A program made the position numbers and the translations under genes. Shown here in pieces: positions 6,941 to 60,609 of a stretch of 64,000 nt of DNA. The first letter of the stretch is position 1; every line of letters starts with the position of its first letter. The notes beneath the pieces are model-generated. The model searched no databases and had not been told where the DNA came from. It saw only the letters and a list, made by a program, of their open reading frames with translations. The DNA comes from Xanthomonas euvesicatoria pv. euvesicatoria. GTDB lineage: Bacteria > Pseudomonadota > Gammaproteobacteria > Xanthomonadales > Xanthomonadaceae. The stretch lies in contig NZ_JAJIUJ010000111.1 of NCBI RefSeq assembly GCF_020880415.1, forward strand, positions 62,001 through 126,000, written 5' to 3'.

Positions 6941-7553
6941 GGCTGCGGTCAGCGCGATACCGCGTCCAGTCGATGCCTGCATGTTCATGGATCGGCGCGC
7001 AGTCCAGCATGACCACCAGCTGCGAAAGGCGGATTTCGAACTGCGCGACAGGCAGGCGATGCCCCGATCGATCAGTGGCCTGCCGCATGCAGGTTGGAAG
7101 GCAGGCATCAAGAACATCGGCACCGCCGCAAGCGGGTTGGCATTGGTCCGAATCTCCGGGTTACAACCGCGTTTGGCTGCGCGCCAGTCGCATGCGCATG
7201 CAAACGTGTGCCACCGACATGTCGATGCGCCACGCTGCGGAGCGGTGGCCGCGAGCCACCGCGGACTGCGCGACCTGATCGCGCTGCGCGCGCATGCGCC
7301 CACCGTTGGAAACGTTGCACCACGCGCGCGCCGTGGCATATGCCACCACGCTTGCCGTCACTCTCGCTCGCCCATGGCGGCAAGACCACCGGTTGCCACA
7401 CGAGGCCGTGCCGCTGCAGCACTGTCGCCAACCACTCCCAAGCCAGCCACGCCAGCGCCCACCACCCCGCCGTCAGGAACGTCCTGACGCAGCCGGCGCA
7501 TCCGTGCTGCGGCCGCGCCCGTATTGGTAGGCACTCCCATCGAGGATCTGCCG
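6941..7553. other. Long intergenic stretch without a supported gene
   Basis: About 610 bases separate the ferredoxin gene from the next gene. Open frames on both strands are arginine-, histidine- and alanine-rich and show no domain, signal peptide or ribosome site. One minus-strand frame near 7390-7520 encodes a Trp/Leu-rich hydrophobic patch, but its continuation is low-complexity and I do not call it. No terminator, tRNA or obvious repeat is seen. Confidence 0.45.
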
Positions 7554-8342
7554 ATGCGTCCACTTGCCGCCACCCTCGCCGCGCTCACCGTCCGTTGCCG
7601 GCCGATTCCGCCGTTGTTGCTGCTGGTGCTGGGCAGCCTGCCGCTCGGCGCAGCCGCGGTGACGCGGGTGGACGGCGATGCGTTCGATGGCGAGAGCGGC
7701 GCGTTGCGATATCGCGAGTCGCACTGGTTGCTCGACGATGGCGGGCGGCTGGTGCTGTACCGCTGCCCGGACGGGCGAGCGTTCGCGCGCAAGCAGGTCG
7801 ATGGCGGCGGCAGCTCGCCTGATTTCAGCCTGATCGATGGACGCGACGGATATCGCGAAGGCGTGCGCCAACGCAATGGCGCACGCGAAATGTATCAGCT
7901 CGCCCCAGGCAAACCCGAACGCCGCACCACGCTGCCGCCTGGCGGCGGCGCGCGGGTGATCGATGCCGGGTTCGACGCCTATCTGCGCGACCAATGGGAC
8001 CCCATTGCACGCGCGCCGCAAAAGGTGGACTTCGTCTTGCCCAGCCTGCAGCGGCAGTTGGGCTTCCGGGTCGAACGCCTAGGCGATGCCGCCGGCCAGC
8101 GGCGCTTCCGCATCAGTCTGGATGCCTGGTACGGCGCGGCGGTGCCATCGCTGGAGGTGCGTTATTCGCTCGCCGACAAGCGGCTGCTCGAGTTCCGCGG
8201 AGTCGGCAATCTGCGCGATGCGAACGGCCGCTATCCGCGCGTGCGCATCGTCTTTCCGGACACCCCTGCGCGCGCGGCCAGTGCCGAGGAAGTACGTCAG
8301 GCGCGCGAGCAGCCGCTGGCCACCTCGTGCAGCGCCTCGTGA
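7554..8342 (+). CDS. Exported protein of unknown function
   Basis: The 262-residue protein has a long N-terminal signal sequence (MRPLAATLAA..., hydrophobic LLLLVLGSLP, probable cleavage after GAA near residue 36). The mature protein is rich in charged residues, with DGG/GGG turns and repeated aromatic-strand patterns, suggesting a periplasmic beta protein. I do not recognise the family. A start ten codons upstream is possible, but the one chosen has GAGGATCTGCCG in front of it and gives a normal signal peptide. The downstream membrane protein and ECF sigma gene run in the same direction with short gaps, so it may belong to the same stress unit; that is inference. Confidence 0.75.
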   Translation: MRPLAATLAALTVRCRPIPPLLLLVLGSLPLGAAAVTRVDGDAFDGESGALRYRESHWLLDDGGRLVLYRCPDGRAFARKQVDGGGSSPDFSLIDGRDGYREGVRQRNGAREMYQLAPGKPERRTTLPPGGGARVIDAGFDAYLRDQWDPIARAPQKVDFVLPSLQRQLGFRVERLGDAAGQRRFRISLDAWYGAAVPSLEVRYSLADKRLLEFRGVGNLRDANGRYPRVRIVFPDTPARAASAEEVRQAREQPLATSCSAS

Positions 8343-8427
8343 ACCACGCCCGCGCCATCTTCACGTCCGACCACGCGCGCTTGCGTACAACGGCCCGGGC
8401 ACCCATTCCCCGTACAGGAGCACCGTC

Positions 8428-8796
8428 GTGGCAAAAGCCTATCTCTGGATCAATGCAGTGCTCTACTTCGTCCTGGCGGTGTGGTGCACGCTCTCTCCGG
8501 CCAAGACCGCAACGGCGGTGGGCTATACCCAGCTCTCGCCGGCCGGGCAATCGGAGTATCTGGTCATCTACGGCGGGTTGCAGTTGGGCATGGCGTTCCT
8601 GTTCGGCTACTTCGCGTGGATCGATCAAGCCCGCACCGGCTTGGTGGTCGCCCTGGCGTTCTATGTCCCCATCGTGCTGTTCCGCAGCGTCTCGCTATCG
8701 CGCTTGTGGCCGGTCTCCGCACCCACGGTTGCGCTTGCCGGCGTGGAGATCCTGTTGTTGCTTGCCGCGGTGCTGCTGTGGTTCCAGCGTAAGTGA
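8428..8796 (+). CDS. Small four-helix membrane protein (DUF4345-like)
   Basis: The 122-residue protein starts with GTG, preceded by AGGAG at 8416-8420 with ideal spacing. It has four predicted membrane helices (about 4-22, 48-66, 73-92 and 98-118). The motif EYLVIYGGLQLG between helices one and two is typical of the DUF4345 type of small inner-membrane proteins; function is unknown. It sits 58 bases before the ECF sigma factor gene on the same strand and could be part of its unit. Confidence 0.75.
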   Translation: MAKAYLWINAVLYFVLAVWCTLSPAKTATAVGYTQLSPAGQSEYLVIYGGLQLGMAFLFGYFAWIDQARTGLVVALAFYVPIVLFRSVSLSRLWPVSAPTVALAGVEILLLLAAVLLWFQRK

Positions 8797-8854: not shown

Positions 8855-9418
8855 ATGAGTGCCATTCCTGGCCACGACGACGATGAGACCGGACGCCTGC
8901 TGACCGCAACCGCGGGCGGCGACCGGCATGCTTTCGAAGCGCTGTATCGGCAGACCTCCGCCAAGCTGTTCGGCGTGTGCCTGCGGATGATCCCGCAACG
9001 TGCCGAAGCCGAAGAGGTGCTGCAGGACGTGTTCACGCTGATCTGGCACAAGGCCGGGCAGTTCGACCCGAGCCGCGCACGCGGGCTCACCTGGCTGGCG
9101 ATGATCGCGCGCAACAAGGCGATCGATCACCTGCGCGCCAACGCGCCGCAGCGCCGCAATGTGGCTCTGGACGATGCCGGCGAACTACGTGCCAGCGATG
9201 CCTCGCCGCTGGATCGCACCGAGCGCGCGAGCACGCGCCGGCGCATCGATCACTGCCTGGCCGAACTGGAACCGCCACGCAGCGAGTTGATTCGCACGGC
9301 GTTCTTCGAAGGCATCACCTACGAGGAACTCGCCGCGCGCACCGATACGCCGATCGGCACGGTCAAGAGCTGGATCCGTCGGGGTCTGGCCAAACTCAAG
9401 GCATGTCTGGAACGATGA
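8855..9418 (+). CDS. ECF-family RNA polymerase sigma factor
   Basis: The 187-residue protein is a typical extracytoplasmic-function sigma factor. Region 2 spans about residues 20-95 (DRHAFEALYRQT, then AEEVLQDVFTLIWHKAGQF and GLTWLAMIARNKAIDHLR). Region 4 spans about 130-185 with a helix-turn-helix ending TPIGTVKSWIRRGLAKLK. It should redirect RNA polymerase to stress promoters. Its stop overlaps the start of an anti-sigma gene (ATGA), the standard arrangement for release by an envelope signal. The membrane-lipid operon that begins 225 bases downstream is the obvious candidate target, but I could not find a repeated promoter motif to prove it. Confidence 0.95.
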   Translation: MSAIPGHDDDETGRLLTATAGGDRHAFEALYRQTSAKLFGVCLRMIPQRAEAEEVLQDVFTLIWHKAGQFDPSRARGLTWLAMIARNKAIDHLRANAPQRRNVALDDAGELRASDASPLDRTERASTRRRIDHCLAELEPPRSELIRTAFFEGITYEELAARTDTPIGTVKSWIRRGLAKLKACLER

Positions 9419-10248
9419 GTACGCCCTTTCCCATCGACCAGGAACCGCCGCGCGACGTGCTTGCCGGCGAATACGTGCTTGGCCTGCTGAGCGCAGAAGA
9501 ACGCCTGGCGGCCGAACAACGCATCGCCACCGACGGCCAGTTCGCCCAGGCAGTGCTGCAGTGGCAGGAACTGCTGGCGCCGCTGCTGGAAGAAATCGTG
9601 GCGCAGACGCCGCCGGATCAGGTGTGGGTACGCGTGCGCCAGGCGCTGGGCTTCGATACGCCCTTGCGCGCGGTGCCGTCTGCAGCGCCGGTCAGCACGA
9701 CCGCGCCTGCAGCGCCGTTGTGGAACAGCGTGCGGTTCTGGCGCTGGGCCAGCGTCGGTGGCCTGGCCACGGCAGCGGTCTGCGTGCTCGCCCTGCTCAA
9801 TCTGCGTACGCCGCCGCCACCGGTGCAGCCGCCGCACACTGGCGAAGTGGTGCAGACCCCGGTCACCCCGCCTGCGACCAATCCACCTGCCGCGACCGGG
9901 ATCGCCATGACCTCGACCCTGGCCACCGAAGACGGTCGCCCGGGTTATGTGGCCTTGATGGACGCCGACAAGCACACCATCACGGTGACGCCGCTGGACC
10001 GCACCGCCACCGCCGACAAGGTGCCGGAGTTGTGGCTGATCACCCCCGATGGCAAGGCGCATTCGATGGGCACCTTCGACGATCAACGTGCACGCCGTGC
10101 GCAGATTCCCGATCAGTTGATGCCCATGTTGAGCAACGAGGCCATTCTGGCCGTCACGCTGGAGCCGCCAGGCGGCGCACCCGGTGGCGTTGCCACCGGC
10201 ACCGTGGTGGCCAAGGGCGGCATCAGCACGCTGGCGATGGCGCCCTGA
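9415..10248 (+). CDS. RskA-type transmembrane anti-sigma factor
   Basis: The 277-residue protein has a cytoplasmic N-terminal segment (about 1-105; EYVLGLLSAEERLAAEQ matches the anti-sigma helical domain) and a single membrane helix at about 108-130. A Pro/Thr-rich linker leads to a periplasmic C-terminal domain of the anti-sigma-K (RskA) type (VPELWLITPDGKAHSMG, ending in a Gly/Pro-rich beta region). It should hold the preceding sigma factor at the inner membrane until a periplasmic cue triggers release. It overlaps the sigma gene by four bases (ATGA). It lacks the HxxxCxxC zinc motif of ZAS/ChrR anti-sigmas, so it is not a ChrR homologue. Confidence 0.92.
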   Translation: MSTPFPIDQEPPRDVLAGEYVLGLLSAEERLAAEQRIATDGQFAQAVLQWQELLAPLLEEIVAQTPPDQVWVRVRQALGFDTPLRAVPSAAPVSTTAPAAPLWNSVRFWRWASVGGLATAAVCVLALLNLRTPPPPVQPPHTGEVVQTPVTPPATNPPAATGIAMTSTLATEDGRPGYVALMDADKHTITVTPLDRTATADKVPELWLITPDGKAHSMGTFDDQRARRAQIPDQLMPMLSNEAILAVTLEPPGGAPGGVATGTVVAKGGISTLAMAP

Positions 10249-10265
10249 TCCAGCGCGCCTGACCT

Positions 10266-10288
10266 CGCCTGCGGCCACTTCGCAGGCG
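10266..10288 (+). terminator. Strong hairpin after the anti-sigma gene
   Basis: CGCCTGCG (10266-10273) and CGCAGGCG (10281-10288) form an eight-pair GC-rich stem with a seven-base loop, 18 bases after the anti-sigma stop. There is no T-tract, so it is not a canonical intrinsic terminator; it may still end or attenuate the sigma/anti-sigma transcript before the lipid operon. Confidence 0.4.
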
Positions 10289-10472
10289 GGGCTCTCCAAG
10301 ACAGCCTCATCCGCGCCGGTATTCTGTGACGCGGGCAATGTGTGCGCAGCTGCGCGATTCGTTCGCGACGCCAAGCGAACCCCACCCATGCGTGCGACGA
10401 TCAAGCGGCCTGGTGCATCTGTTTGCCGGCAGCGTCCGTACTGGGTCACGACTACTCTATGGAGAATCACGC

Positions 10473-11467
<995 letters not shown>

Positions 11468-11471
<4 letters not shown>

Positions 11472-12718
11472 GCGATGGCAGAATTGCCGTGGTCGGCAGC
11501 GGAATCGCCGGCCTCGGTGCAGCGTGGCTGTTGTCGCGGCGCTGCGAGGTGACCTTGTTCGAGGCCGCCGATTATCTGGGCGGGCATACGCACACGCACG
11601 ACATCGACCTGGAAGGTCAGCGTTATGCGGTGGACAGCGGCTTCATTGTGTTCAATCCGCAGCATTACCCGCTGCTCACGCGCATGTTCGCCGAGCTGGA
11701 CGTGGCCGCGCAGCCGACCACGATGAGCTTTTCGGTCCACGATGCACGCAGCGGGCTCGAATACAACGCCGGCAGCCTGAGCGGATTGTTCTGCCAGCGC
11801 CGCAATCTGCTCAGCCCGCGCTTCTGGGGCATGCTGGCCGACCTGCGCCGCTTCTATCGCCAGGCACCGGCGGTGCTGCACAGCGACGAGCGTTTCAGCA
11901 CGCTGGGCGCGTATCTGCAGCGGCACGGCTATTCGGATGCGTTCCGCGACCAGCACCTGGTGCCGATGGCGTCCGCGCTGTGGTCCTCGCCTTCGCAGAC
12001 CATTCTCGAATTTCCCATGGGCCAGCTGATCGGCTTCATGGCCAATCACCATATGCTGCAACTGAGCGGGCGCCCGCAGTGGCAGGTGGTGCGTGGCGGG
12101 TCCAACAGCTACGTGCGTGCGCTGCGGCGACGCTGGCAGGTGATCGAGCGCCTGTCCACGCCGGTACAGGCAATCCGCCGCACGCCCAATGGCGTGGTGC
12201 TGAAGGCTTCGCGTTGCGAGGAACATTTCGACCACGTGGTGCTGGCCTGCCATGCCGACGATGCGCTGGGTTTGCTCAGCGACGCCACGCCGGCCGAACG
12301 ACACATCCTCGGTGGCATCACCTACCAGGACAACGACACCGTGCTGCACACCGATGCCAGCGTGCTACCGCGCGACCGTCGCGCCTGGGCAGCATGGAAC
12401 GCGCACGTGCCGGCCGACCCGGACGCCGCCTGCACGGTGAGCTACTGGATGAACGCACTGCAGTCGATCGCGTCACCGCAGCCGTTCATCGTCAGCCTCA
12501 ATCGCAATCACGAGATCGACCCCGGCAAGGTGCTGCGGCGCATGCGCTACCGCCATCCGGTACAGAACGCGGCGGCAGTGGCGGCGCAAGCGCGCAAGGC
12601 CGAGATCCAGGGCGTGCAGCACACCTGGTTTGCCGGCGCCGCGTGGGGCTTCGGTTTCCACGAAGACGGCCTGCGCAGCGGCGTGGACGTCGCGCATGGC
12701 CTGGGAGTGCACTGGTGA
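11468..12718 (+). CDS. FAD-dependent amine-oxidase-like oxidoreductase
   Basis: The 416-residue protein opens with the dinucleotide-binding motif [15 protein letters not shown] and the adenine-ribose acid ([15 protein letters not shown]), then a flavin amine-oxidase/desaturase-like body and a C-terminal FAD loop ([19 protein letters not shown]). This family is regularly found beside DUF1365 and CFA-like genes and is annotated as an NAD/FAD-binding cyclopropane-associated protein. It probably oxidises or desaturates a lipid-bound acyl chain, which is inference from context. ATGA overlap with both neighbours shows strong coupling. Confidence 0.88.
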
Positions 12719-13602
12719 TGCAGCTGCTGCGCGACGCCCACCACGACGCGGTGCCGTTGCCCCCTACCGAGGGCAGCGGCGCCGGTCGCGTGGCGAGGCC
12801 ATTGCGCAGCGCGATCTACACCGGCTGGGTGCGGCACCGGCGCTTCATGCCCAAGGCGCTGCATTTCCGCTATCGCCTGTTCCTGATGTATCTGGATCTG
12901 TCCGAGCTGGATCAGGTGTTCGCACGACGCTGGTTGTGGTCGGTGGGGCGCGCCAATCTGGCGCAGTTCCGGCGCAGCGACTATCTGGGCGATGCGAGCA
13001 TTCCGCTGGACCAGGCGGTGCGCGACTGCGTGCACACGCACACCGGCGAGCGCCCCGAGGGCGCGATCCGGCTGCTGACGCATCTGCGCTATTTCGGTCA
13101 CGTGTTCAACCCGGTCAGCTTCTACTATTGCTTCGATCGCCACGACAGCCTGCGCTGGATCGTGGCAGAAATCACCAACACGCCCTGGCAGCAACGCCAT
13201 ACCTACGTGCTGCCGGTGGCGCAGGCGCGCACGCATCGCGATGTGCATGCGTGGCGCTTCGACAAGCGCTTCCACGTTTCGCCGTTCATGGGCATGCAGC
13301 AGCGCTACGACTGGCGCTTCAGCGTGCCGGATGCGCAGTTGCGTGTGCATATGGATGTGCTGGACGTCGTTGGCGACGATGCCGGCGGTGCCATCGACAA
13401 CAGCAGTACGCGCCGCTTCGACGCCACCTTGGTGCTGCAACGTCAACCGCTCACCGCGCGCAACCTGGCGTGCACGTTGCTGGCTTATCCGTTGATGACG
13501 GTGTGGGTGGTGATCGCCATCCACTGGCAGGCCTTGCGCCTGTGGCTGCGCGGCAACCCAGTCCACGACCACCCTCACCCGCCTGTGCGAGAACCCCGAT
13601 GA
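12718..13602 (+). CDS. DUF1365 family protein
   Basis: The 294-residue protein belongs to DUF1365: it has the SAIYTGWVRHRRFMPK opening, the FRYRLFLMYLDL strand, and the signature LLTHLRYFGHVFNPVSFYY in the middle. A hydrophobic segment near the C-terminus (LACTLLAYPLMTVWVV) suggests membrane association. Members almost always sit between an FAD amine-oxidase-like gene and a CFA-type methyltransferase; in alpha-proteobacteria homologues are under singlet-oxygen-responsive ECF control. Biochemical role is not established. Start and stop codons overlap both neighbours. Confidence 0.92.
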   Translation: MQLLRDAHHDAVPLPPTEGSGAGRVARPLRSAIYTGWVRHRRFMPKALHFRYRLFLMYLDLSELDQVFARRWLWSVGRANLAQFRRSDYLGDASIPLDQAVRDCVHTHTGERPEGAIRLLTHLRYFGHVFNPVSFYYCFDRHDSLRWIVAEITNTPWQQRHTYVLPVAQARTHRDVHAWRFDKRFHVSPFMGMQQRYDWRFSVPDAQLRVHMDVLDVVGDDAGGAIDNSSTRRFDATLVLQRQPLTARNLACTLLAYPLMTVWVVIAIHWQALRLWLRGNPVHDHPHPPVREPR

Positions 13603-14894
13603 ACGCCACGTCCCTGCCCGATCACGCTGCGCCGCGCGCGGCCTCCTGGACGGACCGTCTGCTGCGCAAGCGCCTGCTGGCCACGCTTGGGCAACTGCGC
13701 GATGGACAGCTGCAGCTGCATGAAGCCGGTACTGTCGCCACGCTTGGCACGGCCACGGGCGCGCAGGCCTTGCAGATGCAGCTGCGCGTGATCGACCCCG
13801 GTTTTTATCGGCAGGCGGCGCTCAACGGCAGCGTCGGTGCGGGCGAGTCGTATATGGATGGGCAGTGGCAGTGCGACGACCTGGTGGCGTTGATGCGGCT
13901 GCTGCTGCGCAACCGCGAGCGGCTGGACGCGATGGAGACCGGCACCGCGCGCCTGGGCGGCTTGGCCATGCGCAGCCTGCATGCGTTTGCGCGCAATACC
14001 CGCAGCGGCAGCCGGCGCAATATCGCCGCGCATTACGACCTGGGCAACCCGCTGTTCAAGCTGTTCCTGGATGAAAACCTGATGTACTCGTCGGCCATCT
14101 TTGTCGACGGCGAGGAGGCACAGGGCGAAGCGGCACTGGAGCGCGCGGCGACCCGCAAGCTCGAACGCATCTGCCAGAAACTGCGTCTGGCGCCGCACCA
14201 TCATGTGGTGGAGATCGGTACCGGCTGGGGCGGCTTTGCGCTGTACGCCGCACGCGAGCACGGCTGCCGCGTCACCACCACCACCATTTCCCGCGAGCAG
14301 TTCGAGCTGGCCAACCAACGCATCGCCGCGGCAGGTCTGAGCGATCGGGTGACGGTGCTGTTGCGCGACTACCGCGACCTGGAAGGCCGCTTCGACCGCG
14401 TGGTCTCGATCGAGATGATCGAAGCCATCGGCCACCAGTATCTGGACACGTACTTCGCCAAGGTCGGCAGCCTGCTGGCCGACGATGGCGAAGCGCTGAT
14501 CCAGGCCATCACCATCGAAGACCACCGCTACAAGCAGGCGCTGCACTCGGTGGACTTCATCAAACGGCACATCTTCCCTGGCAGCTTCATCCCGTCGGTC
14601 GCGGCGATGACCGGCGCGGTCGCGCGCGCCAGCGATCTGCGCCTGTTCAACCTGGAAGACATCGGCCCGAGCTATGCGTTGACCTTGCGCGCGTGGCGGC
14701 AGCGTTTCATGGCGCAGTTGCCGCAGGTGCGTGCGCTGGGTTACGACGAGCGCTTCATCCGCATGTGGGAGTTCTACCTGGCCTATTGCGAGGCCGGTTT
14801 TCTGGAACGCTCGATCGGCGATGTGCATTTGTGGCTAAACAAGCCCGGTGCACGCCCGCCGCAATTCGTGCCGGGCCTCACCGCCAACGCATGA
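13599..14894 (+). CDS. CFA-like SAM-dependent fatty-acyl methyltransferase with altered bicarbonate site
   Basis: The 431-residue protein aligns over its length with E. coli Cfa: ESYMDGQW, HYDLGNPLFKLFLD, the SAM motif VEIGTGWGGFALYAA, the RDYRDL strand and a C-terminal FYLAYCEAGF/LWLNKPG end. Of the five residues that hold the catalytic bicarbonate in E. coli Cfa, Glu239 (here E275), Ile268 and Tyr317 (here Y359) are kept. Cys139 is Ser165 and His266 is Gln302. It should still transfer a methyl group from SAM to an unsaturated phospholipid acyl chain, but the product may be methyl-branched rather than cyclopropane. It is the fourth gene of the ECF-linked lipid operon, with ATGA overlaps on both sides. 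Confidence 0.9.
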   Translation: MNATSLPDHAAPRAASWTDRLLRKRLLATLGQLRDGQLQLHEAGTVATLGTATGAQALQMQLRVIDPGFYRQAALNGSVGAGESYMDGQWQCDDLVALMRLLLRNRERLDAMETGTARLGGLAMRSLHAFARNTRSGSRRNIAAHYDLGNPLFKLFLDENLMYSSAIFVDGEEAQGEAALERAATRKLERICQKLRLAPHHHVVEIGTGWGGFALYAAREHGCRVTTTTISREQFELANQRIAAAGLSDRVTVLLRDYRDLEGRFDRVVSIEMIEAIGHQYLDTYFAKVGSLLADDGEALIQAITIEDHRYKQALHSVDFIKRHIFPGSFIPSVAAMTGAVARASDLRLFNLEDIGPSYALTLRAWRQRFMAQLPQVRALGYDERFIRMWEFYLAYCEAGFLERSIGDVHLWLNKPGARPPQFVPGLTANA

Positions 14895-15436
14895 AGCAGC
14901 TCGGCAACTACCTCGGCATGCAGGTGCTGTGGCTGATAGCGGTCAGCTCCGCTGCGCATGCGCGCATCTGGCCAACGCTGCTGGCGCTGGCCGTCTTTGC
15001 GCTGTATCAGCTGTGGCCAGCGCGGCGCGCACCCGGCGACGTGCAGTTGATGGTAGCAGCCTTGTCGCTGGGATTGCTGCTGGACACCACGCTGGCAGCG
15101 GGCAATTGGGTGCGCTACGCCGCGCCGTGGCCGGGCAGCCTGCTGGCGCCGCCGTGGATCCTGGCGTTGTGGCTGGGCTTTGCGCTCACCCTCAACCATT
15201 CGCTGGCCACGGCAATGCAGCGGCCGTGGCTGGCAGTGGTGCTGGGCGCCATCTTCGGGCCATTTTCGTACTGGCTGGCGCAACGCAGCTGGCACGCGGC
15301 GGAATTTCAGCCGCCCTACCTGCATGCCGTGCTCGCCGTGGGCATCGGCTGGGGCGTGGCCTGCGGCGTGTTGTCGCTGTATGCACGCCGGCTGGCGCGA
15401 CCATTGCCCGATGACCCCACTGGAGAACTGCAATGA
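14891..15436 (+). CDS. DUF2878 family inner-membrane protein
   Basis: The 181-residue protein is almost entirely hydrophobic, with five to six predicted membrane helices. It fits DUF2878 in length and in the GNYLGMQVLWLIAV opening and the WLGFALTLNHSL region. Its biochemical role is unknown. It lies between the CFA-like and DUF1295 genes with ATGA overlaps on both sides, so it is made with the lipid-modifying enzymes and may form a membrane complex with them (inference). Confidence 0.88.
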   Translation: MKQLGNYLGMQVLWLIAVSSAAHARIWPTLLALAVFALYQLWPARRAPGDVQLMVAALSLGLLLDTTLAAGNWVRYAAPWPGSLLAPPWILALWLGFALTLNHSLATAMQRPWLAVVLGAIFGPFSYWLAQRSWHAAEFQPPYLHAVLAVGIGWGVACGVLSLYARRLARPLPDDPTGELQ

Positions 15437-16215
15437 CTGCCTGGCCACTGCTGCATGTGGGCGTGTTCGCAAGCGTGGTGATGGTGGTCGGCTGGCTGTG
15501 GCAACGCCGCAGCGGCAACGCCGGCCCGGTGGATGTGTTGTGGGCGGGCTGCCTGGCGCTGGCGGCGCCGTATTGCGCATGGATGGCCGATGGCGCACTG
15601 CTTCCGCGCGCGCTGGTGGCGGTGCTTGGGGGCGTGTGGGGGGCGCGTCTGGCGCTGCACCTGGGCGTGCGCGTATTCGGCGACCCGCACGAAGACGGCC
15701 GGTACCGCGCGTTGCGCGAGCACTGGAATGGCAGCCAGGGCAAATTTCTCGGTTTTTTCCTGGCCCAGGCCGTGGTGGTGGTGCTGTTCGCCGTGCCGTT
15801 CCTGGCCGCTGCGAGCAATCCACACGCGGAATGGAGCGCATGGACAGGCATCGCGATCGTCGTGTGGTTGATCGCGGTCGGTGGCGAGGCATTGGCGGAC
15901 CGGCAGTTGTCGGCGCACAAGGCCAACCCGGCCAATCGCGGCAAGACCTGCCGCACTGGTCTATGGCGTTATTCGCGCCACCCCAATTACTTTTTCGAGT
16001 TCGTGCACTGGTTCGCGTATCTGGCGCTGGCCGTCGGTGCCGGCCCGTGGCCGGTGGCGCTGTGCGCGCTCGGGCCGGTGGTGATGTTCGTGTTTCTGTA
16101 TCGCTTCACCGGCATTCCTTACACCGAGCAGCAGGCGCTGCGCTCGCGTGGCGAGGACTATGCCCAGTACCAGCGCAGCACCAGCGCGTTCTTTCCACTT
16201 CCCCCTTCGTCCTGA
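15433..16215 (+). CDS. DUF1295 integral membrane protein (steroid-reductase/ICMT-like fold)
   Basis: The 260-residue protein has six to seven membrane helices and ends with the family signature GLWRYSRHPNYFFEFVHW, followed by a Y-x-x-x-P-Y-T-E-Q segment shared with steroid 5-alpha-reductases and isoprenylcysteine methyltransferases. In those enzymes this C-terminal part binds NADPH or SAM. A reductase acting on a membrane-embedded unsaturated chain would fit the neighbours, but the substrate is not known. ATGA overlap links it to the gene before; the next gene starts 17 bases later with its own ribosome site. Confidence 0.9.
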   Translation: MTAWPLLHVGVFASVVMVVGWLWQRRSGNAGPVDVLWAGCLALAAPYCAWMADGALLPRALVAVLGGVWGARLALHLGVRVFGDPHEDGRYRALREHWNGSQGKFLGFFLAQAVVVVLFAVPFLAAASNPHAEWSAWTGIAIVVWLIAVGGEALADRQLSAHKANPANRGKTCRTGLWRYSRHPNYFFEFVHWFAYLALAVGAGPWPVALCALGPVVMFVFLYRFTGIPYTEQQALRSRGEDYAQYQRSTSAFFPLPPSS

Positions 16216-16232
16216 GTTGCCTGGAGAGTTGC

Positions 16233-17306
16233 ATGTCTACCGTTACCGTCCCGCCCTCCGCGCAGCCTGAAGAAGCCTTCGCCACGCGGCTCGCCGAATC
16301 CGGTGTGCTGCCCGATGCCGTCTTGCGCCACGGCATCCGTCGCCTGTGCGCGCAGCGCCTGCGCGATGAGCGCGGCAACGATGCCGATGATGTCAACGGC
16401 GAGCGGCAGCGCGCCTTCATCGACAGCCTGCGGGCCAGCGCGATCGCGATCGAAACCGATGCGGCCAATCGCCAGCATTACGAATTGCCGCCGCAGTTCT
16501 TCACCCTGTGCCTGGGCCGCCGGCTCAAGTACAGCAGCTGCTATTGGGACGCCACCACGCCCAATCTGGATGCCGCCGAAGAACGCATGCTGGCGCTGTA
16601 CGGCGAGCGCGCCGAACTGGCCGATGGTCAACGCATTCTGGAACTGGGCTGCGGCTGGGGCTCGTTGACCCTGTGGATGGCCGAGCGCTATCCGAACGCC
16701 AGCATCACGGCAGTGTCCAACTCGCGCCCGCAGCGCGCGCACATTCTGGAGCAGTGTCGCGTGCGCGGGCTGAGCAACGTGCAGGTGATCACTGCCGACG
16801 TCAACGCGCTGACCCTGCCATCGGGCGACTTCGACCGCGTGGTCTCGGTGGAGATGTTCGAGCACATGCGCAACTACCGCGACCTGCTCGCACGCGTCGG
16901 CAGCTGGCTGGCACCGGGCGGCAAGCTGTTCGTGCACATTTTTTGCCACCGCGATCTGGCCTACCCGTTCGAAGTGGCCGGCGAAGACAACTGGATGGGC
17001 CGGCATTTCTTTACCGGCGGGCTGATGCCGGCGGCCGATACCCTGCTGCATTTCCAGCAGGATGTGGTGATCGAACAACGCTGGCTGCTGTCGGGCGAGC
17101 ATTACGAGAAGACCGCCAACGCCTGGCTGGAAAACCAGGACCGCCACCGCGGCCAGATCATGCCGCTGTTGAAGCAGACCTACGGCGACGACGCGCAGCG
17201 TTGGTGGCAGCGCTGGCGGATGTTCTGGCTGGCCTGCGCGGAATTGTTCGGCTACGACCAGGGCCGCGAATGGGGCGTGGCGCACTACCGTTTCGTCAAA
17301 CGTTGA
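16233..17306 (+). CDS. Second CFA-like/coclaurine-methyltransferase-type SAM methyltransferase
   Basis: The 357-residue protein has the CFA-family core: HYELPPQFFTLCLG, KYSSCYW (about 99-105), the SAM site ILELGCGWGSLTLWMA, VVSVEMFEHM and FVHIFCHRD. The position equal to E. coli Cfa Cys139 is Ser102 with a Cys beside it, while the Glu and His of the bicarbonate site are present. The length and the charged C-terminal WENQDRH-type region place it with the short methyltransferases found at the end of such lipid operons. CTGGAGAG at 16221-16228 gives it an independent strong ribosome site. The likely substrate is an acyl chain already altered by the upstream enzymes. Confidence 0.88.
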   Translation: MSTVTVPPSAQPEEAFATRLAESGVLPDAVLRHGIRRLCAQRLRDERGNDADDVNGERQRAFIDSLRASAIAIETDAANRQHYELPPQFFTLCLGRRLKYSSCYWDATTPNLDAAEERMLALYGERAELADGQRILELGCGWGSLTLWMAERYPNASITAVSNSRPQRAHILEQCRVRGLSNVQVITADVNALTLPSGDFDRVVSVEMFEHMRNYRDLLARVGSWLAPGGKLFVHIFCHRDLAYPFEVAGEDNWMGRHFFTGGLMPAADTLLHFQQDVVIEQRWLLSGEHYEKTANAWLENQDRHRGQIMPLLKQTYGDDAQRWWQRWRMFWLACAELFGYDQGREWGVAHYRFVKR

Positions 17307-17821: not shown

Positions 17822-18529
17822 CTACGGTTGATTGACCCCTGCATTGTCCCGCGAATGCGGCAGGCGTGCAGCCCCGTCGCGCTCGCAGCGCGCCAACACG
17901 GTGCCCGCGCGCACCATCCAGACCACGATCAGCACGATGGCGATCTTCTGGCTAATGCCCAAGGGTGCGCTGGTCACGGTGACATGGAACAGCAACACAG
18001 CAAACGCTGCCCAGCCCAGCAGGAAGGCCGAAGGAAAGTGCGCACGCCACCGCACATCGCGCCGGAAGTACCACGACTGCAGCAGCACTGCCGCAATCAC
18101 GCACAGAAACGTCGTATCCGCCGACAGCACATGCACCATCGCGGCCGCCTCCGGCGCCAGCTCGGGCATCCAGCTGTCGCCGATCGAGACCACGCACAGG
18201 CCCACTGCCGCCATCCAGAACAAACCCAGCACGGTGCGGCTACGCGCAGCCGGCGCCAACGCCGCATACAGACCCCGCGCCAACCACGCCATGCTGGCGG
18301 CCAGCAGGCAGTAGGCGGTGCGCAGCAACAAACCATACGGGCCGTGCAGATAGGCGCTCAGTTGCGCATCCACCCACCATAGATCGCGGCGCAACCATTG
18401 CAGCACCAGCACCAGCCCGATGAAGACCATGCCCGCGATGGCGGCGACGCGGCCGGCGTGGCCGCTCCAGCGCGGCGGCATGGCCCGCGCGTGCGGCGCA
18501 AACGTTGGGGAATCGGGTGGAGTGCGCAT
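17822..18529 (-). CDS. DUF998-like six-helix membrane protein
   Basis: The 235-residue protein has about six membrane helices in the DUF998 arrangement: a first helix GMVFIGLVLVLQWL, the pair around LLLRTAYCLLAASM, GLFWMAAVGLCVVSIGD, MVHVLSADTTFLCVIAAVLLQ and two more at the C-terminus. Family function is unknown. The start at 18529 (MRTPPDSP) is preferred; a longer frame to 18724 adds an arginine-rich tail with no match. It is only ten bases from the RidA gene and divergent from mprF, with 263 bases between them for both promoters. Confidence 0.7.
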   Translation of the reverse strand: MRTPPDSPTFAPHARAMPPRWSGHAGRVAAIAGMVFIGLVLVLQWLRRDLWWVDAQLSAYLHGPYGLLLRTAYCLLAASMAWLARGLYAALAPAARSRTVLGLFWMAAVGLCVVSIGDSWMPELAPEAAAMVHVLSADTTFLCVIAAVLLQSWYFRRDVRWRAHFPSAFLLGWAAFAVLLFHVTVTSAPLGISQKIAIVLIVVWMVRAGTVLARCERDGAARLPHSRDNAGVNQP

Positions 18530-18792
18530 CAGCAGCCTGTCTGCCTTCCAACTGTCATGGCTGTCCTGTCGTGTTCGTTCGGCACGCGTGTGCGGCTTTG
18601 CCCTATGATGCGCGCGGCCGGCCCGCACGGACACTGTGTCGGTACGATCGAACCACGCGTTCACTGGATGTCGGCACCTTCGCAACCACGCTGCATGCAC
18701 CCTCAACCCGACCGGCCCATGCATTGCAAACGCGCGCGCGGCACACCTCGTGCATGCACCCTCCTTCCCTTTCAGCAGATCCCGTTGCCCTC

Positions 18793-21357
18793 ATGACGGA
18801 TACCCCCGCGTCTTCCGAAACGTCCGCCAGCGGTTGGCGTCGCGCCTTGCCGGTCATCATCAGCCTGGCGATCCTGGCGATGGCCCTGCATGCGCTGTCG
18901 TCGCAGTTCACCGACCACGGCTACCGCCAGATCCGGCATGCGTTCCGTGCGCTGGGCGCGGGGCAGATCGCACTGACGCTGCTGCTCGGCCTGAGCAGCT
19001 ACGCGTGCCTGGTGGGCTTCGACTGGGTGGGGCTCAAGCGCACCGGCAAGCAGCTGCATCCGGCACGGGTGGGCATCACCGCCTTCATGGCGCATGCGGT
19101 CGGGCAGACCTTGGGCTTTGCCGCACTCACCGGCGGCGCCGTGCGCCTGCGCGGCTACGGCAGCGTGGGCCTGACCCTGGCCGAGATTGGCCAGGTGGTG
19201 CTGATGAGCACCCTGGGCTTCATCTTCGGGGCCTGGGTGCTGCTGGGTCTGGCATTGCTGCTGGAACCGGAAGCGGCCGCGCGCGCGTTGCCGATCACTG
19301 CGCAGGCCATCCGCATTGCCGGCATCGCCCTGCTGGTCGGCTACAGCGCCATGCTGGCGCTGGTCGGCAAACAGGGCCGCGAGTTCGGCATCCGCACCCA
19401 CCGGTTCTGGTTACCGGACCGCACCACGGTGCTGGGCGTCACCGCACTGAGCGTGGTGGAACTGGGCCTGGCCGCGGCCGCGTTCTACGTGCTGCTGCCG
19501 CCGGACCCCGGTACCGGCTACTTCGGCTTCATCGGCATCTGGCTGGTGGCCGTGGTGGCCGGGCTGATCTCCACCGTGCCGGCCGGCCTGGGCGTGTTCG
19601 AGTGGAGCCTGCTCAAACTGCTGCCGCACGTGACTCCCGCCGCGGTCCTGGCCGCGGCGCTGGCCTACCGCGTCACGTACTACATCGTGCCACTGCTGAT
19701 CTCGGTGGCCATGGCGGCCGCCTCCGGGCTGCGCGCGCCGGTACGCGTCGGCGCCAGCACCGCGCGCACCGTGTGGAAGACCCTGCGCCCGTGGCTGCCG
19801 CAGATTCTGGCGTTGGCGGTGTTTGCAGTGGGTGCCGCGCTGGTGATCGACGGCACCCTGCCGACACCGCGCGCGCGCCAGGAAGTGGCGCCGCTGCCGC
19901 TGATCGAAACCTCGCATCTGCTGGTCAGCCTGGGCGGCATGATGCTGCTGCTGATCGGCCAGGGCCTGCAGCGCCGCAGCCATGCGGCCTGGGTGCTGGC
20001 GCTGGGCGTGTGCTTGCTGCTGCCGCCGTTGGCGCTGCTGCGCGGCAGCCATATCTCGGTGTCGTTGTCGGCGGCGCTGGCAGCGGTTGCGCTGTGGGCG
20101 GCGCGACGCGAGTTCTATCGCCAGGGCGCGCTGCTGGACGAAGCCTGGTCGTGGCGCTGGCTGAGCAACCTGGGCCTGGTGCTGGTGGCCACGTTCTGGC
20201 TGCTGTTCTTCGTCTACAGCCATGTCGAATACAGCAACGATCTGTGGTGGCAGTTCGCCACCTCGGCCAATGCGCCGCGTGCATTGCGCGCCGCGCTGAT
20301 CCTGTGCGTGGGCGTGATCGTGTTCGGCATGGCGCGCCTGCTGCGTGGTGGACGCAGGCCGATGCCGGCGGCCGATGCGCAGACGCTGCAGACGCTGGCA
20401 CCGATCCTGGCCACCAGTACCGATACCCAGGCCTGCCTGGCGCTGACCGGCGACAAGGCGTTTTTGTTGGATGAGCAGCGCCGTGGCTTTGTGATGATGC
20501 AGCGCTATGGCGGTTCGTTGATTTCCATGGGCGACCCGGTCGGTCCGCCGGAGGTGGCGTGCGCGCTGATCTGGCGCTTCCGCGAAGAGGCCGACCACAT
20601 GGGCCTGCGCCCGGTGTTCTACCAGGTCGGCGAACGGTACTGGCAGACCTATCTCGACATGGGCCTGACCCTGGTCAAGCTGGGCGAAGAGGCGATCGTG
20701 CCGCTGGAGGGTTTCACCCTGGAAGGCCGCGACCGTGCCGACCTGCGCCAGGCCTGGAACCGCGGCAAGCGCGGCGGCCTGAGCTTCCGCATGCTGCCGC
20801 CCGAACAGGTGGAGGAGGTATTGCCGCGCCTGGCCGAGGTGTCGGAACAATGGCTGGAAGAAAAATCCGGCGAAGAGAAAGGCTTCTCGCTGGGCAGCTT
20901 CGATCCGGATTACCTGCGTCGCTTCCCGGTGGCGGTGGCCGAGGTCGAAGGCCAGATCGTGGCATTTGCCAATGTGTGGTGGGCACCGGCCGGCGGCGAA
21001 CTGTCGGTGGACCTGATGCGGCACAGCGCGCAGGCACCGAAGGGCACCATGGACTTCCTGTTCATCGAGTTGTTCCTGTGGGGCCAGGCCAACGGCTACA
21101 CGCGGTTCTCGCTGGGCATGGCGCCGTTGTCGGGCCTGGCCGAACATCGCCTGGCCGGGCGCTGGAACCGCTTCGCCAGCCTGGTCGCGCGGCACGGCGA
21201 GCGTTTCTACGGATTCAGCGGTCTACGCCGCTTCAAATCGAAGTTCGCCCCGACCTGGCGTCCACGCTACCTGGTCGCCCCCGGCGGCATGCATCTGCCG
21301 GCCGCCTTGCTGGATGTCACCCGCCTGATCTCGGCCGATCCTGGGCGGCAGGAGTAA
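18793..21357 (+). CDS. mprF: Bifunctional aminoacyl-phosphatidylglycerol synthase/flippase MprF
   Basis: MprF transfers an amino acid (Lys or Ala) from aminoacyl-tRNA to phosphatidylglycerol and flips the product outward, making the surface less negative and resistant to cationic peptides. The 854-residue protein has the two expected halves: about 14 membrane helices to residue ~540, including the flippase segment (FAALTGGAVRLRGYG, LISTVPAGLGVFEW), then a cytosolic DUF2156 synthase domain (GDKAFLLDEQRRGFVMMQRYGG, SMGDPVG, SVDLMRHS, NGYTRFSLGMAPLSGL). The amino acid used cannot be read from sequence. The ATG at 18793 is chosen; one 13 codons upstream is possible. The tail-to-tail virJ gene encodes the probable opposing hydrolase. 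Confidence 0.95.
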   Translation: MTDTPASSETSASGWRRALPVIISLAILAMALHALSSQFTDHGYRQIRHAFRALGAGQIALTLLLGLSSYACLVGFDWVGLKRTGKQLHPARVGITAFMAHAVGQTLGFAALTGGAVRLRGYGSVGLTLAEIGQVVLMSTLGFIFGAWVLLGLALLLEPEAAARALPITAQAIRIAGIALLVGYSAMLALVGKQGREFGIRTHRFWLPDRTTVLGVTALSVVELGLAAAAFYVLLPPDPGTGYFGFIGIWLVAVVAGLISTVPAGLGVFEWSLLKLLPHVTPAAVLAAALAYRVTYYIVPLLISVAMAAASGLRAPVRVGASTARTVWKTLRPWLPQILALAVFAVGAALVIDGTLPTPRARQEVAPLPLIETSHLLVSLGGMMLLLIGQGLQRRSHAAWVLALGVCLLLPPLALLRGSHISVSLSAALAAVALWAARREFYRQGALLDEAWSWRWLSNLGLVLVATFWLLFFVYSHVEYSNDLWWQFATSANAPRALRAALILCVGVIVFGMARLLRGGRRPMPAADAQTLQTLAPILATSTDTQACLALTGDKAFLLDEQRRGFVMMQRYGGSLISMGDPVGPPEVACALIWRFREEADHMGLRPVFYQVGERYWQTYLDMGLTLVKLGEEAIVPLEGFTLEGRDRADLRQAWNRGKRGGLSFRMLPPEQVEEVLPRLAEVSEQWLEEKSGEEKGFSLGSFDPDYLRRFPVAVAEVEGQIVAFANVWWAPAGGELSVDLMRHSAQAPKGTMDFLFIELFLWGQANGYTRFSLGMAPLSGLAEHRLAGRWNRFASLVARHGERFYGFSGLRRFKSKFAPTWRPRYLVAPGGMHLPAALLDVTRLISADPGRQE

Positions 21358-57839: not shown

Positions 57840-59417
57840 TTACAGCACCTCGAGGTGGGCGCGCCAATGCGCGGCCTGGGCCTGCACCTGTGCCAGCACT
57901 TCGGGGGCCATACCGTCGAGCTGGCGGTACGGCAGCGCCAGGCGTTCGTTGGCGCCCAACAGCAGGCGCTGGCGCTGCAGAAAGTCCCAGTACAACGCGT
58001 TGTACGGGCAGGCGTTCGGCCCGACCCGCAACTTGCGCTGATACCGGCAACCACCGCAGTAATCGCTCATGCGATCGATATAGGCCGCACCGCTGATATA
58101 CGGCTTGCTGCCGAGCAGGCCGCCATCGGCGAACTGGCTCATGCCCACCGTATTGGGCAGCTCCACCCACTCGAAGGCGTCGATATACACGCCCAGGTAC
58201 CAGCGATGCAGCGCCTGCGGGTCCAGCCCCGCCAGCAGCGCAAAATTACCGATCACCATCAGCCGCTGGATGTGATGCGCATGCGCATTGGCCAACGAAT
58301 TGCCGATCGCATCTGCCAGGCAGCGCATGCCGATCTGCCCGTCCCAGAACCAGTGTGGCAGCGCTGCATGCTGATCGAGATGATTCGAGTCCGCATAGCC
58401 GGGCATCTGCGACCAATACACACCGCGCACGTACTCGCGCCAGCCCAGAATCTGCCGGATGAAGCCTTCCACCGCCGCCAACGGCGCATGCCCTTGCCGC
58501 CATGCCGCTTCGGCGCGCGCGATCACTTCGCGCGGGTGCAGCATCTTGACGTTGAGCGCGAACGAAAGCAGCGAATGGAACAGGCGCGGGCTACGCGTGC
58601 TCATCGCATCTTCGTAGCGGCCGAAATTGGGCAATGCATGCGCGATGAAAGCGTCCAGATGCTGCAAGGCTTCGTCGCGATCCAGCGGCCATGGCAGGGC
58701 GTGCGCATTCGGTGCGCCAAAACTGCGCACCCCGGCGGCTTCGATCGTGCGCCACAGCGCGCTGTGGTCGTGGGTCGTGCGCCAATCCTGTGGGGCAGGC
58801 GGGTCGCCCGGCCACGGCGCACGGTTGTCGTGATCGAAGTTCCAGCGCCCGCCTTCCGGCTCGCCCGCGGCATCGAGCAGGATGCCATGCTGGCGCCGCA
58901 TGCGCCGATAAAACACTTCCATGCGCCACGGGCTGCCGGCGCGAAAACAGCCGGCGACTTCACTGCGTGCGGTCAAAAAATGTTCGCTGCCGAGCATGCG
59001 CGTGGCAAAGGGCTGCGCGGCGCTCCAGTGCTGTAGTGCTTCGTCCAGCCGCCATTCGTCTGGGGCCTGGTACTCCAGATGGCCGGCGCGGTAATGCGCC
59101 ATCAACGCCTCGAGGTTGTGCGGGATCGACTGCCGGTTGCTGGCATTGTCGATGGTCACATAGCGCACCCGATGCCCGGCACGCCGCAGGCCCGCAGCGA
59201 ACGCGCGCATGGCCGCGAAGATCGCCAGGACCTTCTGCGCGTGATGCAGCACGTAGTCGGTTTCCTGCCGCACTTCCATCAATACATAGACCACGCCTGC
59301 ATCGCGCGTCGCGAACCAGCTGTGGTGCGGATCGAGCTGGTCGCCCAGAACCAAACGCAGCGTATGGGCCGGCGTTTGTGGGGTGGTTTGCGCGACAAGT
59401 GCGCTGGAATCATGCAT
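57840..59417 (-). CDS. Iron-sulfur bacterial photolyase/cryptochrome (FeS-BCP, PhrB-like)
   Basis: The 525-residue protein opens LRLVLGDQLDPHHSWF, typical of the photolyase-related FeS-BCP group rather than class I CPD photolyases. It has the four cluster cysteines C366, C454, C457 and C470 (GMRC, DYCGGC, NACPYN), with the 88-3-13 spacing of the [4Fe-4S] site in Agrobacterium PhrB, a (6-4) photolyase. FAD-binding features include GWREYVRGVYW and WVELPNTVGMSQFADGG. It should use light to repair (6-4) photoproducts, or act as a light sensor. The next genes downstream of its promoter side encode an FAD amine-oxidase-like protein and FrnE on the same strand. Confidence 0.93.
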   Translation of the reverse strand: MHDSSALVAQTTPQTPAHTLRLVLGDQLDPHHSWFATRDAGVVYVLMEVRQETDYVLHHAQKVLAIFAAMRAFAAGLRRAGHRVRYVTIDNASNRQSIPHNLEALMAHYRAGHLEYQAPDEWRLDEALQHWSAAQPFATRMLGSEHFLTARSEVAGCFRAGSPWRMEVFYRRMRRQHGILLDAAGEPEGGRWNFDHDNRAPWPGDPPAPQDWRTTHDHSALWRTIEAAGVRSFGAPNAHALPWPLDRDEALQHLDAFIAHALPNFGRYEDAMSTRSPRLFHSLLSFALNVKMLHPREVIARAEAAWRQGHAPLAAVEGFIRQILGWREYVRGVYWSQMPGYADSNHLDQHAALPHWFWDGQIGMRCLADAIGNSLANAHAHHIQRLMVIGNFALLAGLDPQALHRWYLGVYIDAFEWVELPNTVGMSQFADGGLLGSKPYISGAAYIDRMSDYCGGCRYQRKLRVGPNACPYNALYWDFLQRQRLLLGANERLALPYRQLDGMAPEVLAQVQAQAAHWRAHLEVL

Positions 59418-59597
59418 CAAAGTGACGCCCGATGATGCGGGGCGCATGGGCGCGTCCGTGCCGACGCGGCGCATGGGCATGCCTTGGACCCGAAAAAAAC
59501 ACTCGAATCACCGGCAACGCATGCACCAACGACTGCCATGACCGCGGTATGGACTTGCATCGCACTGCCCTTTAGTTCTGCGCTGCCTGGCACAGCG

Positions 59598-60569
59598 TCA
59601 GTGGCCAGCGCTGTACAGCACATCGCCGGCAGACACGCGCCGGGCCAATGCCATTGCGCTCTGCCATGCGCCCTCCACCTTGCCGCCGGCCAGCCAGTCG
59701 CCGCACATGCCCAAGCCCAGCTGCGCATCCCAGACGCAGCCAAGCTGCAATGCCGGGTCGCTACTGGCAACCTTCCAAAAAAAAGCATCGCAGGACTGCG
59801 GCACTGGCAACCCGAGCGCTGCAAGCTCCGGCACCAGGCTGGCGCTGACGTGCCCAGGCATGGCATCGCAGTGCGCCTGGCTCCACTCGGCCGTTGCATG
59901 CGCCAGCCAGTTCTCCGCACCCGCACGCGCAGGCTTGCTGGAGTTGCGCGCCACCCAGCGTAACGCGCCGGCATTGACGAACAGCGCGTCGTAGCCCGGA
60001 TCGATGGGCGCATCGAAGTGCGCCATCACCGCCAACGCAGGCGCAGCCTGCGCGAGTAACCCAGCCGCACTCGGCGCCGGGACGGCCAGCAACACCGTAT
60101 CGAACAGATGCTCTGCAGCATCTTGCGACACCGACAGGCGCCATCCCTGCCGGCTGCGCTGCAGCGCGCGCACCTCGGCACTCAAACGCACATCCAGCTG
60201 CGCGGCAAGCGTACGCGCCGGCGCGGTCATCTCGGACACACCCACGTAGCGCATCAGCGCGCTCTGGGATCGGCGCAACTGCGTGCCGTCCCAGCTTGCG
60301 ATACGCGCCTGCCAGGGCGCGGCAATACCGGCATCGATCCAGGCATCCACGACCGCTGCAAATGCAGGATCGCGCGCGGTGAAATACTGCGCTCCGTGAT
60401 CGCATTGCCACTGCTCGGCGCTGTAGTGGCGCATGCGGCCGCCCGGGGTCTGCGCCTGATCGAACACCGTCACTGCATGGCCTTCCATCTGCAGTTGCTG
60501 CGCGCAGGCCAACCCGGCCAGCCCGGCGCCGATCACGGCGATCGTCTGCGCGCGGTCGGGCAGTGTCAT
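59598..60569 (-). CDS. FAD-dependent amine-oxidase-like protein (renalase-type)
   Basis: The 323-residue protein has the GxGxxG motif in IAVIGAGLAGLACAQQL, the ribose acid FDQAQTPGGRMRHY, DHGAQYFTARDP, a substrate-loop region (VAVPAPSAAGLL) and a C-terminal FAD motif LGMCGDWLAGGKVEGAW. It matches the NAD(P)/FAD-dependent renalase-like family often found beside photolyase genes in this group. The substrate is unknown. ATG at 60569 is preferred; one eight codons upstream is possible. It is 180 bases from the photolyase start and 40 from FrnE on the same strand. Confidence 0.88.
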   Translation of the reverse strand: MTLPDRAQTIAVIGAGLAGLACAQQLQMEGHAVTVFDQAQTPGGRMRHYSAEQWQCDHGAQYFTARDPAFAAVVDAWIDAGIAAPWQARIASWDGTQLRRSQSALMRYVGVSEMTAPARTLAAQLDVRLSAEVRALQRSRQGWRLSVSQDAAEHLFDTVLLAVPAPSAAGLLAQAAPALAVMAHFDAPIDPGYDALFVNAGALRWVARNSSKPARAGAENWLAHATAEWSQAHCDAMPGHVSASLVPELAALGLPVPQSCDAFFWKVASSDPALQLGCVWDAQLGLGMCGDWLAGGKVEGAWQSAMALARRVSAGDVLYSAGH

Positions 60570-60609
60570 GCCATCGCGCACGTGCCGGTGCATGCGGCAG
60601 GCATGCGGG

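Follow-up and report, generated by a model that had tools for sequence, protein, structure and literature searches.

Methylated furan fatty acids are made in Rhodopseudomonas palustris and Rhodobacter sphaeroides by a short pathway. UfaM methylates cis-vaccenate, UfaD then desaturates the methylated product, UfaO, a DUF1365 protein, uses O2 to form the monomethyl furan, and FufM introduces another methyl group (PMC7380195). In R. sphaeroides and R. palustris this pathway is under RpoE/ChrR control. For the mycobacterial pair SigK/RskA, it is described that the SigK cysteines influence binding to RskA and that SigK drives its own expression from the Rv0449c promoter (PMC7509140). Its signal is called unknown (PMC7509140) and its biological role little known (PMC7509140, PMC5547695). 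Here we analysed a window, i.e., the whole stretch of 64,000 nucleotides, from Xanthomonas euvesicatoria pv. euvesicatoria (contig NZ_JAJIUJ010000111.1, positions 62,001 to 126,000; assembly size 5.3 Mb, 121 contigs), in which an extracytoplasmic function (ECF) sigma factor and an RskA-type anti-sigma factor lie ahead of seven lipid genes. Judged from its sequence, the locus is quite probably an operon for methylated furan fatty acids that is induced by stress under a SigK/RskA-type pair.

Relatives of the Four Furan Enzymes Lie in One Operon

The ECF sigma/RskA-type anti-sigma pair (8855-10248) is followed by seven tightly packed genes (10473-17306), and all nine are on the + strand, as the first-pass annotation had described:

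8855..9418, + strand: ECF sigma factor, SigK-like, with Cys134 and Cys184 (Pfam, sequence alignment)
9415..10248, + strand: RskA-type anti-sigma factor (PF10099, E 1.1e-20)
10473..11471, + strand: membrane fatty-acid desaturase with three His boxes, GTG start (PF00487, E 3.5e-27)
11468..12718, + strand: flavin adenine dinucleotide (FAD) oxidoreductase, UfaD-like (identity to UfaD-position proteins)
12718..13602, + strand: DUF1365 protein, UfaO-like (PF07103, E 3.6e-85)
13599..14894, + strand: S-adenosylmethionine (SAM) methylase of the CMAS/CFA family, UfaM-like, non-cyclopropane-synthase type (identity, active-site residues)
14891..15436, + strand: DUF2878 membrane protein (PF11086, E 8e-38)
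15433..16215, + strand: DUF1295 membrane protein, steroid/sterol-reductase fold (fold match)
16233..17306, + strand: SAM methylase, CMAS-like, FufM-like (identity to fufM-like proteins, coclaurine N-methyltransferase match)

From the desaturase through DUF1295, neighbouring genes overlap by 4, 1, 4, 4 and 4 bases, and the last methylase gene begins 17 bases past the DUF1295 gene. The sigma and anti-sigma genes overlap by 4 bases, and a spacer of 224 bases separates the anti-sigma gene from the desaturase gene. The best Pfam E-values for the nine genes range from 3.9e-15 (sigma) to 3.6e-85 (DUF1365).

For comparison, 149 genomes of the family Xanthomonadaceae were searched, and 79 contained a DUF1365 gene. 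From these, 40 loci of about 19 kb each were picked for genus spread. The desaturase, FAD, DUF1365, CFA and last methylase genes co-occur in 40/40 of these relatives, where DUF1365, used as bait, is present by construction; DUF1295 is found in 38/40 and DUF2878 in 32/40. A second comparison set consisted of 80 fufM loci, which are mostly alphaproteobacterial.

The furan enzymes were compared with reference proteins from R. palustris JSC-3b and Rhodopseudomonas sp. B29, where the gene run is ordered UfaD-UfaO-UfaM. Against these two genomes the FAD oxidoreductase shows 41 and 44% identity to the UfaD-position proteins, the DUF1365 protein 31 and 33% to the UfaO-position proteins and the first methylase 41 and 40% to the UfaM-position proteins. 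The last methylase is 48 and 49% identical to the fufM-like proteins and only 27% to UfaM, and it groups with the former, away from the latter, in the sequence comparison. The gene set named in the first-pass annotation is present, with a correction for the last methylase, which among solved structures (phmmer, PDB) matches a plant coclaurine N-methyltransferase at 4e-72 versus Cfa at 1e-26. The Arabidopsis relative of FufM is LIME1 (PMC10940516).

At the positions of C139 and H266 of E. coli Cfa the first methylase carries Ser and Gln and the second Ser and His, so that the Cys139/His266 pair is absent from both. These two Cfa residues have roles in bicarbonate binding. Among furan-linked first methylases, window included, Gln266 occurs in 26/26 and Ser139 in 25/26. 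A genome search at E 1e-10 yielded no CMAS-family gene beyond the two in the operon. Because of the identities, the structure matches and the residues at 139 and 266, the first methylase is classed by sequence as UfaM-like and the second as FufM-like. The model of the UfaO-like protein is a small beta-barrel (predicted local distance difference test score, pLDDT, 80.8) that comes closest to a spirocyclase and to heme nitrobindins, in each case by a weak match. The product lipid had been considered unpredictable from known pathways. This view is not supported, since relatives of UfaM, UfaD, UfaO and FufM are all present and predict mono- and dimethyl-furan fatty acids.

Two of the remaining genes are additions to the known module. 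The desaturase matches acyl-CoA desaturase 4ymk at 8e-28 (phmmer), its three His boxes are kept in 38/40 relatives, and its role is likely the supply of an unsaturated acyl substrate. Neither the desaturase nor DUF2878 was found in any of the 80 fufM loci. An Aeromonas gene cluster also combines DUF1365 with DUF2878 (PMC10012899), therefore DUF2878 is not unique to the family of the window. DUF1295 had been counted as a third extra gene; it adjoins fufM in 65/80 fufM loci and is thus no addition.

The Sigma Factor Resembles SigK and Its Partner Is of the RskA Type

The best solved-structure match of the sigma factor is M. tuberculosis SigK (4nqw, 4e-25), and R. sphaeroides RpoE scores 1.6e-23. 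In the alignment, the redox cysteines 133 and 183 of SigK correspond to Cys134 and Cys184 of the sigma factor in the window. Both cysteines are present in 26/26 RskA-paired sigmas compared (18 from the family, 8 from fufM loci), with the first one matched by a loose pattern, and the one non-RskA-paired sigma compared (L143) has a cysteine at neither position. The RskA-type anti-sigma gene directly follows the sigma gene, as in SigK/RskA (ECF18/19). In the anti-sigma factor neither an HxxxCxxC zinc motif nor a ChrR cupin was seen; Pfam gives RskA_C only, and the protein has a single Cys, at position 123.

A Promoter-Like Motif Precedes the Operon and the Sigma Unit

Of the 40 family loci, 18 have an RskA-type pair near the operon, 10 have a ChrR-type pair and 12 have neither; the ten ChrR-type loci were picked by eye from a zinc motif plus HxH cupin motif pattern and two of them were confirmed by Pfam. 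Upstream of the desaturase gene lies the motif GCATC-N17-CGTA, in its longer form TGCATC(C/T)-N16-CGTA. Allowing spacings of 17-19, it was found in 31/40 loci within 320 bases, from 260 upstream to 60 downstream of the estimated desaturase start. Across 200 rounds of dinucleotide shuffling it turned up in 0.15 loci on average and in 2 at most, and on the reverse strand it was found in 2. With the exact spacing the motif precedes the desaturase in the window and in 18/18 RskA-type, 8/10 ChrR-type and 2/12 neither-type loci.

A position weight matrix (PWM) built from 26 sites, with the window excluded and close relatives included, picked out two sites in the 64 kb, at 10415 (36.7 bits) and 7498 (27.5 bits), and the next best match reached 14.9 bits. 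The second of them lies ahead of two genes that precede the sigma gene:

7498..7523, + strand: SigK-type promoter-like site GCATCC-N16-CGTA, ahead of the sigma unit (PWM 27.5 bits)
7554..8342, + strand: DUF3108-like gene, first of the sigma unit (open reading frame; alternative longer TTG start at 7524)
8428..8796, + strand: small membrane protein, DUF4345-like (PF14248, E 3.7e-5, 24.1 bits, cut-off 26.5; 8389-8796 scanned)
10415..10440, + strand: SigK-type promoter-like site GCATCT-N16-CGTA, ahead of the lipid operon (PWM 36.7 bits)

A promoter had been expected before 10473, and the promoter-like site at 10415-10440, which is kept in relatives, supports the earlier proposal that the neighbouring ECF sigma controls an operon for a modified fatty acid. 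The sigma unit probably starts upstream of 8855, at the DUF3108-like and DUF4345-like genes, which occur in 16/40 and 10/40 relatives, respectively. The product of 7554..8342 had no match in the Pfam scan, and the label DUF3108-like is our own assignment. In 16/18 RskA-type relatives a site is found no more than 600 bases upstream of the sigma unit. Autoregulation of the sigma factor from a CATCC-type promoter is predicted, with candidate sites at 7498 and 10415 and in the relatives.

The loci without an adjacent RskA pair provide a further comparison. Among these 22 genomes two have an unlinked SigK-type sigma (E 1e-30), and they are exactly the two with a neither-type locus that carries the exact site (L056, L068). 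Taken together, the exact site is present in 28/30 loci with a SigK- or ChrR-type sigma versus 0/10 without (Fisher 8e-8, a value that ignores kinship among loci, with unlinked sigmas searched for the SigK type).

The Regulatory Pair Has Been Exchanged While the Operon Stayed

No SigK-type sigma was found in the ten ChrR-type family genomes. Their loci keep the GCATCC-type motif, several of them also ahead of their own sigma genes, and TGATCC was seen in none of the ten. The ChrR-type loci with GCATCC-type, non-TGATCC sites are L046, L049, L053, L054, L058-L061, L065 and L066. A shift in promoter specificity is possible in these loci. When the RskA and ChrR labels alone are placed on a quick tree built from four concatenated operon proteins, 5 changes are required. 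Within one family the sigma/anti-sigma pair beside this lipid operon was swapped several times, and the operon kept its promoter motif.

In the fufM loci, a ChrR-like protein by the same criterion is found in 24/80, and 22/24 of these have TGATCC-N16-CGTA and none GCATCC (by eye). Eight fufM loci have an RskA pair, and (T/C)GCATCC is present in 5/8. One locus, L150 from an uncultured Bosea sp. metagenome-assembled genome, contains two ECF sigma genes, at 960 and 6896, with a different promoter type each. TGCATCC lies just ahead of the RskA-paired sigma and GTGATCC ahead of the second, more distant ECF sigma.

The different anti-sigma factor had been taken as a sign of a distinct pathway. This is not supported, since within one family the operon and its promoter motif also stand beside ChrR-type pairs, and a plasmid from an actinobacterium (below) carries a run of FAD, DUF1365, methylase, lipocalin, sigK and anti-sigma genes. 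Because the same operon and promoter motif occur with RskA- or ChrR-type pairs, the type of anti-sigma, as read from sequence, does not define the pathway.

Genes Predicted to Be Expressed with the Operon

The pattern GCATCY-N16-CGTA occurs at 26 places in the genome, versus 8 for the reversed pattern. Of the 26 places inspected, three with plausible downstream genes were followed, encoding a fasciclin, a lipocalin and a molybdopterin oxidoreductase (Pfam). We label the last one MsrP, which is our own assignment. The check was made in 19 relatives, i.e., the 18 in which an RskA pair had been seen and G085, whose locus was not fetched. The exact site lies ahead of 11/20 fasciclin, 11/17 MsrP-like and 4/23 lipocalin matches, and the four lipocalin genes with the site are same-genus orthologues (90-94% identical). 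In six relatives (G145, G115, G038, G019, G039, G015) the lipocalin gene comes next after fufM. In M. tuberculosis fasciclin genes are targets of SigK, and in M. kansasii light induces them (PMC9861118); the R. sphaeroides RpoE regulon for singlet oxygen also includes fasciclin (PMC7074977). The cell probably produces the fasciclin, lipocalin and MsrP-like proteins along with the predicted furan lipids. A fairly good promoter match (PWM 18.0) was also noted 131 bases upstream of a Sir2-like deacetylase gene (label by eye; L221, C25:360596).

Proposed Function of the Locus

RskA would release the sigma factor, which would fire two promoters, at 7498 for its own unit and at 10415 for the lipid operon. 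The desaturase may place a double bond in acyl chains, UfaM would methylate this double bond and UfaD would add a second one. UfaO would then insert oxygen, closing the monomethyl-furan ring, and FufM would add the second methyl group. In a host rich in 9-unsaturated C16 the expected products are 8,11-epoxy-9-methyl- and 9,10-dimethyl-hexadeca-8,10-dienoic acids. As membrane lipids these furans would scavenge singlet oxygen and related species.

Several points weigh against this proposal. Both the promoter motif and its exact spacing were derived from the loci in which they were then counted, so the group without a regulator is the fairer test. Mycobacterial SigK-RskA is stabilised by oxidation, and reduction releases SigK in vitro (PMC7509140), so that oxidation cannot simply be assumed to be the switch. 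The UfaO step shows low identity (31-33%), and the genes studied by experiment come from strains CGA009 and 2.4.1, other than the strains compared here. Two other fatty-acid desaturase genes lie elsewhere in the genome (C10:140563 and C25:205905), and the proposed pathway gives DUF2878 no step. For the predicted regulon, the exact site is absent at 9/20 fasciclin, 19/23 lipocalin and 6/17 MsrP-like matches. The nearest relative, G092, is without the exact site at its fasciclin gene, and in the same-genus genome G140 no lipocalin match was found.

The signal might also be a different one. The pair could sense something other than photo-oxidation, such as envelope damage or reductive stress, and the lipid could be a membrane-fluidity or permeability product. 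An envelope-active compound induces the SigK regulon (PMC5547695), and the in vitro release of SigK by reduction, not oxidation, points the same way. However, the same promoter motif stands beside ChrR-type pairs in the family, the furan genes are found together with fasciclin in the R. sphaeroides singlet-oxygen RpoE regulon and a SigK/RskA-like pair of R. capsulatus is induced by singlet oxygen (both PMC7074977). We regard a different signal as possible but rather unlikely.

DUF1295 could be read as an isoprenylcysteine-type methyltransferase (ICMT) and as such be the third methylase of the pathway. The protein shows a whole-chain match to the steroid 5-alpha/sterol reductase fold. Reductases outscore ICMTs and align over more residues (4quv 235, 7c83 210 and 7bw1 196, versus 167-175 for ICMTs). 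D156, N185, Y186 and W193 are invariant in 30/30 rows, and its RHPNY motif with Asn185 aligns with PNY of a steroid reductase, whereas the ICMTs compared have RHPSY or RHPMY. A methyltransferase is thus unlikely. Speculatively, DUF1295 may recycle oxidised furan lipids. The furan ring would trap singlet oxygen and open to a reactive ene-dione, DUF1295, as a membrane enzyme of the steroid-reductase type, would reduce the C=C of the ene-dione to a 1,4-dione, and the dione would cyclise and lose water, restoring the furan. If true, dimethyl-furan lipids would be a catalytic membrane antioxidant. For R. palustris CGA009 a strain deleted for RPA0923, probably a DUF1295 gene, is on record. That the SigK/RskA regulon is at root such a furan-lipid antioxidant response, made renewable by DUF1295, is an idea to which we give little probability.

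That the product is a methyl-branched or cyclopropane acid and never a furan, with DUF1365 acting otherwise and the last methylase on another substrate, is improbable, because all four furan-enzyme relatives stand together in 40/40 loci, the active-site residues are of the UfaM type, not Cfa, and FufM identity reaches 48-49%, even though UfaO identity is just 31-33%, the last methylase resembles plant N-methyltransferases as well and no demonstrated furan product came to light for the actinobacterial DUF1365/CFA sets.

The operon for methylated furan fatty acids under a SigK/RskA-type pair remains our preferred reading. It would connect SigK/RskA with a defined lipid pathway whose product can be tested for, and it predicts furan fatty acids for Xanthomonas-type bacteria, on which one literature search listed no relevant paper. 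What is new here is the SigK-furan link, the predicted regulon, the additions of desaturase and DUF2878, and DUF1295 as a member of the furan-fatty-acid module, with a structural reason to suspect a reductase.

Neighbouring Genes

A gene for an MprF (lysyl-phosphatidylglycerol synthase-like) protein (18505-21357, + strand) adjoins the lipid operon, and an MprF-like gene lies at the same place in 8/40 relative loci, those closest to the window. About 41 kb from the operon are a photolyase-related (DPRP) gene (57840-59480, - strand) and a FAD amine-oxidase-like gene (59598-60695, - strand); the PWM scan of the 64-kb window gave no high-scoring promoter match near these two.

Comparison with Known Systems

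In Chlamydomonas, singlet-oxygen induction of CFA1, CFA2, DUF1365, DUF1295, fasciclin and MSRA3 needs SAK1, and CFA2 is also listed as a coclaurine N-methyltransferase (PMC4067076). This gene set belongs to a eukaryote with an unrelated regulator and is likened to that of the window by annotation, not by sequence.

The likeness to the SigK/RskA system of Actinomycetota lies in the best PDB match, both redox cysteines and the RskA-type anti-sigma factor, and further in a predicted CATC(C/T) -35 element, predicted autoregulation and a predicted fasciclin target. Two actinobacterial loci were read. A Tsukamurella plasmid has the gene order FAD-DUF1365-methylase-lipocalin-sigK-anti-sigma, and a Rhodococcus plasmid a hydrolase-FAD-DUF1365-CFA run with DUF1295 further on. 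In both, the gene run is immediately preceded by CCATCC-N15-CCGAAT, a sequence that presumably agrees with the SigK consensus. Their -10 element is CCGAAT, versus CGTA in the window, and no desaturase, DUF2878 or second methylase is annotated in them.

With RpoE/ChrR (ECF11) the window shares the enzyme set, the fasciclin target and a similar bipartite promoter. In contrast, its anti-sigma factor is an RskA_C protein without zinc or cupin motif, and its promoter is TGCATCC, not TGATCC.

The kinship with the Rhodobacter furan-fatty-acid system, already suspected in the first-pass annotation, is supported. Relatives of UfaM, UfaD, UfaO and FufM of the Rhodopseudomonas/R. sphaeroides pathway are all in the window, together with the UfaM active-site signature, and in R. 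palustris JSC-3b DUF1295 adjoins the fufM-like gene as it does here. Compared with the UfaM-UfaD-UfaO/FufM system, the window has a single operon with an added desaturase and DUF2878, and a control of the SigK/RskA type in place of RpoE/ChrR.

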